Part shown: piece by piece, positions 41,491 to 58,875 of the stretch
Layout of the letters: each line of letters begins with the position of its first letter
How positions within the stretch are numbered: the stretch's first letter is position 1
Assembly (NCBI RefSeq): GCF_002252565.1
Contig: NZ_NPML01000004.1
Location: 124,001-188,000 of the forward strand
Length of the DNA: 64,000 bases
From: Petroclostridium xylanilyticum
Lineage (GTDB): Bacteria; Bacillota; Clostridia; SK-Y3
Direction of reading: 5' to 3'
Notes under the pieces: generated by a model
Told to the model about the DNA's origin: nothing
The model's database searches: none
Seen by the model: the letters and a program-made list of their open reading frames with translations, nothing else
Program-made: the position numbers and the translations under genes

Positions 41491-41576
41491 TTTAACCATT
41501 TTAGAAAAATCATTGTAATATCCAAACGGTAAATATAACCTGCTATGTTAGTTAAATTAATGCGTTCTGCTAATTC

Positions 41577-41620
41577 ATCCATACGAAAAGAATACTGTGG
41601 AAAGGCTTAGAGCCTGTTAA
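41577..41620 (+). repeat. Partial copy of the AGGCTTAGAGCCT repeat
   Basis: GAAAAGAATACTGTGG followed by AAAGGCTTAGAGCCTGTTAA; this matches 50107-50145 closely, and the reverse strand of 55497-55545. The short hairpin AGGCT-TAG-AGCCT is the shared centre. It lies about 25 bp before the first rRNA promoter. Confidence 0.6.
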
Positions 41621-41644
41621 TCCAGTTTTTTTATTCAAAAGGTG

Positions 41645-41812: not shown

Positions 41813-41830
41813 AGGTTCTCGTTGATTATA

Positions 41831-41858
41831 GTTCACAGTTCACGGTTCGCAGTTCACA
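41831..41858 (+). repeat. Four GTTCACA-type heptads in the 16S leader
   Basis: GTTCACA, GTTCACG, GTTCGCA, GTTCACA in exact 7-bp register. Complementary to the five units at 42001-42035, so the 16S leader can fold into a second long stem inside the processing stalk. Confidence 0.75.
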
Positions 41859-42000
41859 GAAGTGAGCGGTGAGAGTGAAAGTGTGAACAAAAAATGAGTA
41901 AACCTAGCGTACTTAATAAAGTAAGTCAGTAATAGTTTATGAGCTAAATTGAACGATTAATATATAACGGGGAACAGATTGGGTTGACAGAAGAGGTTCA

Positions 42001-42035: not shown

Positions 42036-43560
<1,525 letters not shown>

Positions 43561-47007: not shown

Positions 47008-47015
47008 ATGAAACA

Positions 47016-47139
47016 GTTCACAGTTCATGGTTCACAGTTCACAGTAGAAAGGTGAATGGGGAACATGCTGGTGAACAAGAAAGAGTACCTGAGGCAATTA
47101 AAAGAGCAGGTTAAGAATTCAAACCGTGACCTGTGAACG
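47016..47139 (+). repeat. Inverted pair of GTTCACA heptads in the 23S-5S spacer
   Basis: GTTCACA, GTTCATG, GTTCACA, GTTCACA (47016-47043) opposes GTGACCT, GTGAACG (47126-47139). This is the third inverted heptad pair within this operon. Confidence 0.65.
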
Positions 47140-47318: not shown

Positions 47319-47555
47319 GGTTTTTATTTATGATGCGACTTGCCCCAATGTAACATATTAAGTGTATTATATATAGATATATTTACGTATTAGATATGTC
47401 TATCTTTGCAGAAAAATTTAATAATTATGTAATAATATTTAATAATTTTGTAATATATTAAGTAAACCTGAGCAATAATGACTTAATGCATTATAATAGC
47501 AGCTAATTTAAATATATAAAATTAGACCTATACAAAATATTATGGTAAACTAAAA

Positions 47556-47673
47556 TTGCTGAATCTTTATTAATAAATAAAGAACGGGGGAACAAACATA
47601 TTGGGGTGAAGCCAATTATTAGGCAGGGTGTTGTCTCCTTTTACCTAACCCGTCAACTAACCTCGTAAGCAAA
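47556..47673 (+). ncRNA. c-di-AMP riboswitch (ydaO-yuaA class)
   Basis: This leader shows the class hallmarks in order: TTGCTGAATC near the 5' end, a variable hairpin CTTTATT/AATAAAG, ACGGGGGAACAAAC, TTGGGGTGAA, a second variable stem, then AACCCGTCAACTAACCTCG and TAAGC. The 5' TTGCT pairs with AGCAA at 47668-47672 to close P1. ydaO riboswitches bind c-di-AMP and turn off cell-wall hydrolase, osmolyte or potassium genes. Here it ends about 20 bp before the start of a secreted peptidoglycan-binding protein. No separate T-run terminator is evident, so control may act on translation. Confidence 0.9.
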
Positions 47674-47694
47674 CAAAAGGAAAGGATGTTATTT

Positions 47695-49786: not shown

Positions 49787-49912
49787 TTTACATTGTCTAT
49801 TTTAGTTCAGAGTTCACAGTTCACGGTTCACAGGATTTTCTTGGCTAATTTCTGTGAACTGAGAACTGTGAACCGTGAACTGTGACCTTATTGACTTTAT
49901 CTGCCATGTAAA
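49787..49912. repeat. 126-bp palindromic repeat element with short inverted ends (copy 2)
   Basis: Ends TTTACAT (49787-49793) and ATGTAAA (49906-49912). Inside are GTTCAGA, GTTCACA, GTTCACG, GTTCACA (49805-49832) and the opposing GTGAACT, GAGAACT, GTGAACC, GTGAACT, GTGACCT (49854-49888). The right end TTATTGACTTTATCTGCCAT (49888-49907 and onward to 49913) matches, reversed, the end of the element at 2351-2376 with one mismatch in 26. Confidence 0.62.
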
Positions 49913-50079
49913 AACATTATTTTACATTGGTTATCGATATATCGTCTGCAATTTTTCGAGCACAACATAGTAATATTATATCAGAACAACTGGTAGGACT
50001 AAAGTCTTACTTACTATTTTTTGATATTTTCAATTACTTTATATGTACAAAATATGATAACTTTACACTTTCAAAACTG

Positions 50080-50186
50080 GGTGCATTTAATTTAGTTGAT
50101 GAATATTATGGAAAGAATGTTGCGAAAAGGCTTAGAGCCTGTTAACGCAACGGAGGAAAAGCCGCATCACCTAAAAAATATACACC
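50080..50186. repeat. 107-bp palindromic repeat (AGGCTTAGAGCCT family), fullest copy
   Basis: The outer arms 50080-50102 and 50164-50186 are imperfectly complementary (GGTGCATTTAATTTAGTTGATG against the complement of CATCACCTAAAAAATATACACC). Inner arms GTTGCG/CGCAAC flank the central hairpin AGGCT-TAG-AGCCT. Partial copies occur at 41577-41620 and, reversed, at 55497-55560. The forward frame reads LVDEYYGKNVAKRLRAC then stop; the other copies preserve KN...RLRA, but no start or ribosome-binding site supports a gene. Confidence 0.6.
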
Positions 50187-50302
50187 TTCGAAACTTTATT
50201 TGGTTTGCAAAATTTATGTAATTAATATACAATAATAAAATGGAAAATTTAAACGTGTTTAGGGTAATAATATTATTATGATTTTCAATGAGGTGGTAGC
50301 TT

Positions 50303-51466
50303 ATGCAAAAAGAAATTTATCTAGATAACAGTGCAACAACTAAACCTTACATAGAAGTGGTAGATGCAATGGTAGAGACGCTAACGGATAATTACGGGAA
50401 TCCATCTTCGTTGCATATAAAGGGTATTAATGCAGAAAGGGCAATCAAGAAGTCCAGGGAAATCATTGCCAGAGCTTTAGACGTAAAGAGCAGTGAGCTT
50501 TTTTTTACTTCCGGCGGCACAGAATCCAATAATATAGCAATTAGAGGGATAGCTGCAGCAAATAAGAAGAGAGGCAACCATCTTATTACATCTGTCATAG
50601 AACATCCTTCAGTATTAAATACTTTTAAATATCTTGAAGAAGAAGGTTTCAGAGTATCGTATATACAAGTAGATAAAAACGGAATAATAGATTTAGGACA
50701 GTTGGAAAAAGCCATATGTAACGATACCATCCTGGTAAGTATAATGCATGTAAATAATGAAGTTGGAACTATCCAGCCTATTAAAGAAGTTAGGGACATA
50801 TTGGATTTAAAACAATCAAAAGCTATATTCCATGTTGATGCAATACAATCTTTTGGAAAGATTTCATTTACACCAAAACAATTTGGAATCGACTTATTAT
50901 CTGTTAGTGCACATAAGATTCATGGACCAAAAGGCGTGGGGGCACTATTTATAAAAAAAGGCGTATTAATAAAACCTATTGTCTATGGAGGAAATCAGGA
51001 ACTTAATATGCGTTCAGGAACTGAAAACGTCCCTGGAATTATAGGATTTGGAAAGTCAGTTGAACTAACTTTTCAAAATCTAAATAATGCAATCTCAACC
51101 ATGAATGAGCTCAAAGAAACTTTGAAGAAAAAGATAATAGAAAAAATAGATAAAATAATTATAAATGGACAAGTTGCCGGTAAAAATGCACCTCATATAT
51201 TAAATGTTTCTTTTCCGGGAATTAGAGCAGAGGTTCTTCTTCATGCATTGGAAGATAAGGGGATATTTGTTTCTACCGGGTCAGCCTGTTCTTCAAACAA
51301 ACCTTCTCCCAGTCACGTTTTAACTGCAATGGGTGTTGAACGTGAATGTATTGAAGGGGCAATAAGATTCAGTGTATCTGCATTTAATACTTTAGAAGAT
51401 ATAGAATATTGTGTAGAACAGTTAAGTACCATCATTCAACAGTTGAGAAAATATACACGGAGGTAA
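50303..51466 (+). CDS. Cysteine desulfurase (NifS/IscS family)
   Basis: A 387-residue PLP enzyme transferring cysteine sulfur to an acceptor. The N-terminus is 'IYLDNSATTKPYIEV'; 'FTSGGTESNNIAIRG' is near 68, the PLP Lys lies in 'VSAHKIHGPKGVG' near 203, and the persulfide Cys in 'STGSACSSNKPS' near 327. GAGGTGGTAGCTT precedes the ATG. It is 4 bp upstream of thiI, so its likely job is sulfur supply for tRNA 4-thiouridine, as for Bacillus NifZ-ThiI. It need not be the general Fe-S desulfurase. Confidence 0.94.
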   Translation: MQKEIYLDNSATTKPYIEVVDAMVETLTDNYGNPSSLHIKGINAERAIKKSREIIARALDVKSSELFFTSGGTESNNIAIRGIAAANKKRGNHLITSVIEHPSVLNTFKYLEEEGFRVSYIQVDKNGIIDLGQLEKAICNDTILVSIMHVNNEVGTIQPIKEVRDILDLKQSKAIFHVDAIQSFGKISFTPKQFGIDLLSVSAHKIHGPKGVGALFIKKGVLIKPIVYGGNQELNMRSGTENVPGIIGFGKSVELTFQNLNNAISTMNELKETLKKKIIEKIDKIIINGQVAGKNAPHILNVSFPGIRAEVLLHALEDKGIFVSTGSACSSNKPSPSHVLTAMGVERECIEGAIRFSVSAFNTLEDIEYCVEQLSTIIQQLRKYTRR

Positions 51467-53025: not shown

Positions 53026-53045
53026 TGGGCGTTAGTATGAAAATC

Positions 53046-53117
53046 GTTCATGGTTCGCAGTTCTTGGTTAATGGGCATAAAAATATTCATTTTACTATGA
53101 ACTACGAACCATGAACT
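53046..53117. repeat. Inverted heptad arrays between pspC and ldh
   Basis: GTTCATG, GTTCGCA, GTTCTTG, GTTAATG (53046-53073) faces ATGAACT, ACGAACC, ATGAACT (53097-53117), followed by TTTTT. The arms pair well, so this probably serves as a terminator between the convergent pspC and ldh genes. A short related run (GTTCATA, GTAAGCT, GTAAACT) lies at 52657-52677. Confidence 0.65.
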
Positions 53118-53130
53118 TTTTATTCATATC

Positions 53131-54081
53131 TTAATCAATCGGTATTTGTTTTATAACATCTTTTAATGCTGATGCAGATTTTCTTAATAACTGTACTTCT
53201 TCATCAGCTAAAGGCACTTCTAAAATTCTATCAATACCTTTTTCATTAACAATTGTAGGCAAACTTAAACATACATCATTAATACCATACTGTCCGGTCA
53301 TTAGACTGGATACGGTTAAGATTGAACGTTCATCCCTTAATATACATTCTACAATTCTTCTTACCGCCAGGGCAACAGCATAATAGGTTGCGCCTTTCTT
53401 TTCAATGATTTTGTATGCGGCATTTTTTACATTTTCATAGGTTTCCTGTTTAGAATATCCTTCACATTTTGCGCAATAATTGCAGAATTCTTCCATAGTC
53501 ATTCCGGCAATATTTGTCAGACTCCAGGCTGCAACTTCTGTATCCCCATGTTCACCTAGTATATATGCATGAATATTTCTTGCATCAACTCCTGTATGCT
53601 GGCTAAGCAAAAATTTAAATCTTGATGTATCCAGAACTGTCCCAGAGCCAATTACTTTTTTTGGTGAAAGTCCGGAAATCCTTAAAGTTACATATGTAAG
53701 AATGTCTATGGGATTGGTTACAATTAGCAATATAGAATCCTCACAATACTTTATGATTTCAGGAACAATTGATTTGAAAATTTCAGTATTCTTTTTTACT
53801 AAATCGATCCGGGTTTCCCCAGGCTTTTGATTAGCTCCGGCAGTGATAATTACAATATCGGAGCCGTGGCAATCTTTAAAATCTCCAGCCGTAATCTGTA
53901 CCGGGCGCACAAAAGGCATACCATGATTCATATCCATGACATCACCTTCGGCCTTGTCTTTGTTAATATCTACAATGACAATTTCCGATACCAGTCCGCT
54001 AAGCATCAATGTATACGCTGTTGTAGATCCTACAAATCCAGCACCAACTACTGATATTTTACCTGTAATCTTGTGAAGCAT
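53131..54081 (-). CDS. ldh: L-lactate dehydrogenase
   Basis: A 316-residue NAD-dependent enzyme. NAD site '[20 protein letters not shown]' (about 11-30); the substrate loop '[14 protein letters not shown]' (about 81-94) has Gln at the position that selects lactate over malate, plus catalytic Arg; 'TNPIDILTY' near 122, active-site His in '[12 protein letters not shown]' near 176. AGGAGGTTATCAT precedes the ATG on the minus strand. It regenerates NAD by reducing pyruvate, complementing acetate formation by Pta-AckA. Confidence 0.94.
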
Positions 54082-55496: not shown

Positions 55497-55560
55497 AAGG
55501 CTCTAAGCCTTTTCATAACGTTCTTTTCACAACATTCATCAACTAAAAAATATATACCCA
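55497..55560 (-). repeat. Partial reversed copy of the AGGCTTAGAGCCT repeat
   Basis: The reverse strand reads GGGTATATATTTTTTAGTTG, then ATGAATGTTGTGAAAAG..., then AAGGCTTAGAGCCTT. It matches the left half of the 50080-50186 element, including TTTAGTTGATGAAT. It begins 7 bp after the cinA stop and ends just before the recA promoter. Confidence 0.6.
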
Positions 55561-58687: not shown

Positions 58688-58875
58688 TTCACTTAACGAA
58701 TTATGTTGGTATGTACGGTGTCGTTACATCGGAATTTAAGCCTTTGGAGAGTCATACCAAACGCAAGTAGGATTCCGAAAGCGGACTCTATGAATAAGGA
58801 AAAGAACATAAAAGTTATAAATTTTATAACTTTTTATAAGTTTCTTATAACGGTTCAGGTAAATGATTATTACTT
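58640..58875 (+). ncRNA. Probable omega-RNA (TnpB guide RNA) region at the right end of IS607
   Basis: The tnpB 3' end and the 172-bp non-coding tail hold several helices. TTGGTATG (about 58705) pairs with CATACCAA (about 58754), CGGAAT (about 58731) with ATTCCG (about 58773), AGAGTC (about 58748) with GACTCT (about 58785), and TCCG-AAAG-CGGA forms a local hairpin; some are mutually exclusive or pseudoknotted. Known omega-RNAs end at the element boundary, with the guide copied from the flank; here that flank would be TAAATGATTATTACTTC, the recX start. Limits are approximate. Confidence 0.55.

Follow-up and report, generated by a model that had tools for sequence, protein, structure and literature searches.

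Bacterial MITEs of 100-200 bp have been described previously, for example the QMITEs of Coxiella (PMC10969869). The repeat analyzed here resembles the Coxiella-type MITEs in its inverted ends, its target duplication, its lack of genes, its intergenic location, and its ability to fold. It differs from them in that the interior of its parent element is a conserved hairpin, the tip of which is found again on unrelated arms elsewhere among the lineages, and in that at least two different types of ends carry one core. Repeats such as bcr1, ERIC, BOX, and similar elements are likewise multi-copy, intergenic, and endowed with a long secondary structure (in part, PMC10969869), and the present family is set apart from them, by description rather than by sequence, through its invariant tip with free arms. 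The REP elements with RAYT transposases are also palindromic, multi-copy, and intergenic (PMC3733652). However, REPs are 20-40 bp in length, whereas the elements examined here are 97-200 bp, with a 9-bp duplication and IS-type ends, and thus lie outside the REP/RAYT size range. Insertion sequences of the ISKra4 family (NCBIfam NF033572) share with the repeat the GGGTGCAT ends and the 9-bp duplication, and those found in two genomes (G000 and G330) match the local MITEs; unlike these insertion sequences, the MITE encodes no transposase and contains a hairpin in its place. Among the open-access papers searched, nothing relevant was found on the tip, FERSEF, or ISKra4 MITEs, while a description may be held in the subscription literature.

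The repeat in the window and in its host genome

The 107-bp repeat of the window, i.e., the whole stretch of 64,000 nucleotides from Petroclostridium xylanilyticum that was analyzed, is almost certainly a MITE, a small non-coding mobile DNA (Table 1). The original prediction had placed it at 50080-50186, of which the right end was correct, while the true start at 50079 makes the element one base wider. It begins with GGGTGCATTTAATTTAGTTGATG and finishes with CATCACCTAAAAAATATACACC, and its inverted ends read GGGTGCAT.../...ATACACC(C), where the right end is without the last C. The surrounding 9-bp target duplication contains one mismatch (ttcAaaact/ttcGaaact). The complementary arms that had been predicted for this fullest copy, TTTAGTTGATG / CATCACCTAAA, were found to be present. 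No transposase or other conserved gene was identified in the 108-bp element, and its short reading frames are without regular starts.

Table 1. Coordinates of the repeat elements and associated features in the window.
Feature	Position	Strand	Remarks
Type-A MITE	50079..50186	+	108 bp; ends GGGTGCATTTAATTTAG / CTAAAAAATATACACC; deletion derivative of ~199-bp parent element
Left target-site duplication TTCAAAACT	50070..50078	.	8/9 identical to 50187-50195
Right target-site duplication TTCGAAACT	50187..50195	.	Adjoins right end of type-A element
Conserved core AAAGGCTTAGAGCCT	50126..50140	+	Itself palindromic; left-arm segment of parent hairpin
Left half of type-B element, ends TTAATGCGTTCTGCTAATTCA...	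41548..41625	+	Cut off past core; 83% match to full type-B L032
Type-A half, GGGTATATATTTTTTAGTTGATGAATG...AGGCTTAGAGCC	55498..55559	-	Cut off past core; between cinA and recA

The window contains exactly three occurrences of the core AAAGGCTTAGAGCCT, whose partner in the full-length copies is ACAGGCTCTTAGCCTT, at the three predicted sites (41601-41615 on the forward strand and 55498-55512 on the reverse strand, in addition to the site in Table 1). All remaining matches in the window, with up to three mismatches allowed, have three mismatches. The three copies had been regarded as one family, which holds for the shared core; however, two of them are halves, and the type-B copy has other ends, whereas the half at 55498-55559 has the same ends as the type-A element. 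In general, the type-B ends TTAACGCGTTGTGCTAGTTCA differ from those of type A, and the interior is the same. The neighboring genes were identified as predicted, comprising the cysteine desulfurase (NifS/IscS type), ThiI, RecA, and the rRNA operon, and the type-B half lies approximately 25 bp upstream of a TTGACA box of the latter (16S rRNA at 42036). That copies lie close to rrn, nifS-thiI, and recA is probably a coincidence. Elsewhere in the window, a c-di-AMP riboswitch (47547-47686) and a RAGATH-18 RNA (58741-58801) were both detected above the gathering score.

The host genome of the window (G000) comprises 3.86 Mb. A genome-wide search, of the kind that the original prediction had proposed, was run with GGCTTAGAGCCT and at most one mismatch; it returned 69 matches in comparison to two for the reversed control, far more than chance would give. 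When the element, its core, and its ends served as queries, 101 match clusters were obtained (reversed-pattern controls, 0 to 2), or about 100 copies or fragments of the repeat. The type-A end pattern alone had 94 matches, versus none in the control, and formed 33 convergent pairs, mostly 96-100 bp long. The outer 9-mers of these 33 pairs were identical at a rate of 0.717 versus 0.327 +- 0.029 when permuted, while the identity of the flanks was near chance at lengths of 4-8 and 10-13; a signal confined to k=9 indicates transposition with a 9-bp target duplication. The palindrome-type DNA that had been suggested as one possibility is supported, and the repeat is of a mobile kind; its transposon origin, the 9-bp duplications, and the hairpin tip spread through the phylum had been out of reach for the original prediction. 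Several copies are halves and have no duplication. Among the 84 elements whose surrounding genes could be classified, 64 are located between tandem genes.

Additional repeats were observed alongside this family. Elements of 39 bp, composed of two type-A ends without any core, are located in L092 (1185-1223), L102 (894-932), and L103 (1119-1157). A second repeat family consists of GTTCACAGTTCACGG heptads and occupies positions 2344-2454, 41825-41868, 47012-47047, 49800-49920, and 53041-53133 of the window. The repeat had been described as distinct from the GTTCACAG heptads, in agreement with a heptad element that sits inside the type-B copy L127 (C11:150263-150433). This heptad copy interrupts the type-B element with TATA on either side, suggesting that the heptad family is probably mobile too. 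Finally, the locus L091 (C18:1-9500 of the host genome) contains a unit of ~2.08 kb with an ORF of 304-308 amino acids in three tandem repeats, which are either real or an assembly error.

A candidate mobilizer and the parent hairpin

A search with the MITE ends identified an insertion sequence of 1636 bp in the host genome (L094, 1149-2784), which encodes a transposase of 453 amino acids. The transposase matched the NCBIfam ISKra4 model with an E-value of 4.8e-84 and 282.9 bits (cut-off 205), and the ISLre2 model scored below its own cut-off. Both ends of the insertion sequence carry GGGTGCAT, where one end matches the MITE over ~27 bp and the other matches GGGTGCAT; the shared end reads GGGTGCATTTAAT(C/T)TAGTTGATGAATA, and that of G330 is alike. 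Members of the ISKra4 family generate a duplication of 9 bp, and a second copy of the insertion sequence in the host genome (L097) is flanked by a perfect duplication of TTTTATACG. G330, which belongs to a different bacterial family, contains an ISKra4 insertion sequence with a AAAAACATC duplication (L376), as well as hairpin MITEs of 197-200 bp with GGGTGCAT ends and 9-bp duplications in which 7-9 bases match. In addition, the sequence just inside the end of the insertion sequence resembles the local MITEs of each genome (TTGATGAATA in G000 and TGTGAAGAA in G330).

Because the ends and the 9-bp duplications are shared, the ISKra4 transposase is the most likely mobilizer of the MITE, as judged from sequence comparison. 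Encoded elsewhere in the genome, it would recognize the GGGTGCAT ends and insert the MITE with a 9-bp duplication. That the window element is such an ISKra4-mobilized MITE, with GGGTGCAT ends and a 9-bp duplication and shortened from a hairpin parent of ~199 bp, is held with high confidence. An ISKra4 transposase above the cut-off was found in only two of the 391 sampled genomes of the class, namely G000 and G330, and no ISKra4 gene was found in the fragmented assemblies of the element-bearing G001, G004, and G005. A partner transposase of the type-B elements was looked for and not found, and TA-flanking of these elements was suggested by eye. Given their different ends around a common core and the missing partner, the type-B elements cannot be explained by ISKra4.

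Full copies form one long hairpin in G000, G001, G004, G005, and DTU092 (G391, whose records are identical to those of G099). The ~199-bp parent is composed of transposon ends around an almost perfect hairpin of ~165 nt, which is capped by the invariant 19-nt tip TGTTTGAGCGAAGCGAGTT. Among 18 full cores, changes on both sides were observed in 9 of 28 hairpin pairs, where shuffling gave 2.6 and slid controls gave 0-3, and base pairing holds in 97.8% of the cells. A covariance model of the hairpin matched 23 of 291 genomes of the class. Several long copies (L007, L008, L013, L029, and L030 in G000, L182 in G001, and L260 in G004) also carry, close to the tip stem, a REP-like hairpin of 35 nt, which is either GGGGACATTCCTCGACGAAGGAGAGGTGTGTCCCC or a near variant of it.

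The shorter forms appear to derive from this parent. In the window copy, GCCGCATCA of the left arm is joined directly to the right end, and CATCA is common to both sides, consistent with a deletion of the tip through CATCA microhomology. The same joint is carried by L002, and it is entered or crossed by the alignments of L003 and L004. A perfect 9-bp duplication at the L003 site indicates that the deleted form itself moved. Similarly, the 97-bp type probably originated from a deletion between the near-identical arms AGGCTTAGAGCCT and AGGCTCTTAGCCT (AGGCT..AGCCT), and the short forms would have been amplified after deletion.

A constant hairpin tip and its possible explanations

With at most one mismatch, the tip was found in 39 of the 391 genomes of the class, usually in several copies each, and, beyond the class, in additional families of the phylum. 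The complementarity of the arms around it scored 18.3, versus 3.3 +- 3.0 at random positions. In contrast, the likeness of the arms between lineages was about 0.41, no more than that of shuffled sequence, with higher values confined to the IS-linked group (0.45-0.68) and to a single further pair (0.54). The host genome itself includes a second hairpin family (L386-L390), which has the same tip on the arms GCAGGCGCAC/TGCGCCTGCC. The boundaries of the elements differ from lineage to lineage, and clustering of neighbors revealed no common gene adjoining the tip among cellular loci. Tip matches in viral contigs were mostly in one Acinetobacter-type prophage gene and in filamentous-phage loci (organisms assigned by eye), which are not hairpins, while five were hairpins. 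In L322 and ~38 similar viral contigs, the tip always lies at the same position of a prophage region that is, by eye, of Acinetobacter type, with no hairpin. For single pattern matches in unrelated organisms, the element was absent by eye.

The recurrence of the tip with unrelated arms in a wider family suggests that, upon folding of the strand as either RNA or single-stranded DNA, the tip is probably the part that some factor recognizes. A broader reading is put forward tentatively: the phylum would harbor long single-strand hairpins defined only by the invariant tip, with any complementary sequence as arms and in several unrelated transposon shells; the tip would serve as the binding site of some factor, and the family would be a new structured mobile module.

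Several alternatives were considered. The hairpin may be retained for the work of a transcript, in which case the repeat would be a functional structured RNA (a regulator or an sRNA) that is multi-copy by chance. This is rather unlikely, although the transposon ends leave the hairpin unexplained and the compensatory changes agree with an RNA. Isolated wobbles on the tip-bearing strand also favor G.T over A.C (121 to 62; 23 to 5 by genome) and the copies in G000 tend to share the direction of the tandem genes around them (43 to 21), but these counts overstate the case, as copies inside one genome are not independent; within that limit, the G.T excess and the co-directionality point to the folding of one strand. 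A role as RNA is at odds with the tipless short forms, including the window copy, which still transposed and multiplied, with the lack of a common neighbor among cellular loci, and with an Rfam search that matched no described RNA family. Less probable still is a single-stranded DNA hairpin that serves a recombinase of the HUH or another type (REP/IS200-like or attC-like), with the tip as its putative recognition site. Such a hairpin would fit a constant tip on changing arms, as well as the elements of G050, which had no visible duplication on inspection, and a further lead is the unusually high stability in DNA of GCGAAGC tips and of GGA/GGA internal loops. However, the 9-bp duplications of type A are clear and its ends are of the IS type, and no linked recombinase was found adjoining the tip.

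The remaining explanations concern the window copies more directly. A bidirectional transcription terminator was suggested by the hairpin AGGCT-CTA-AGCCT, after which the reverse strand reads TTTT, but it is very improbable, given that a scan of 49900-50400 gave no terminator call inside the element and that only six of the 84 classifiable elements lie between convergent genes. Remnants of a protein gene ending in RLRAC can be practically dismissed. All three window copies can indeed be read as K-N-x-x-x-R-L-R-A, as initially proposed, yet across 34 copies the RLRA frame is open for just 2-72 codons upstream, with a start codon in 15, and it mostly closes soon past RLRAC. The longer copies with an intact protein ending in RLRAC, which the original prediction had named as its refutation, did not occur among these 34, nor was any longer relative seen to encode a conserved protein in intact form. 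The changes in the hairpin were found to follow base pairing.

As a MITE, the repeat is ordinary, being a new member of a kind already known, although the papers searched seem to contain no description of an ISKra4-driven MITE that is accompanied by its partner in two bacterial families. The surprising part is a hairpin tip that stays constant while the arms are unrelated. This implies selection on how a single strand folds, as well as a shared recognizing factor, and the tip provides a simple sequence handle for finding that factor.
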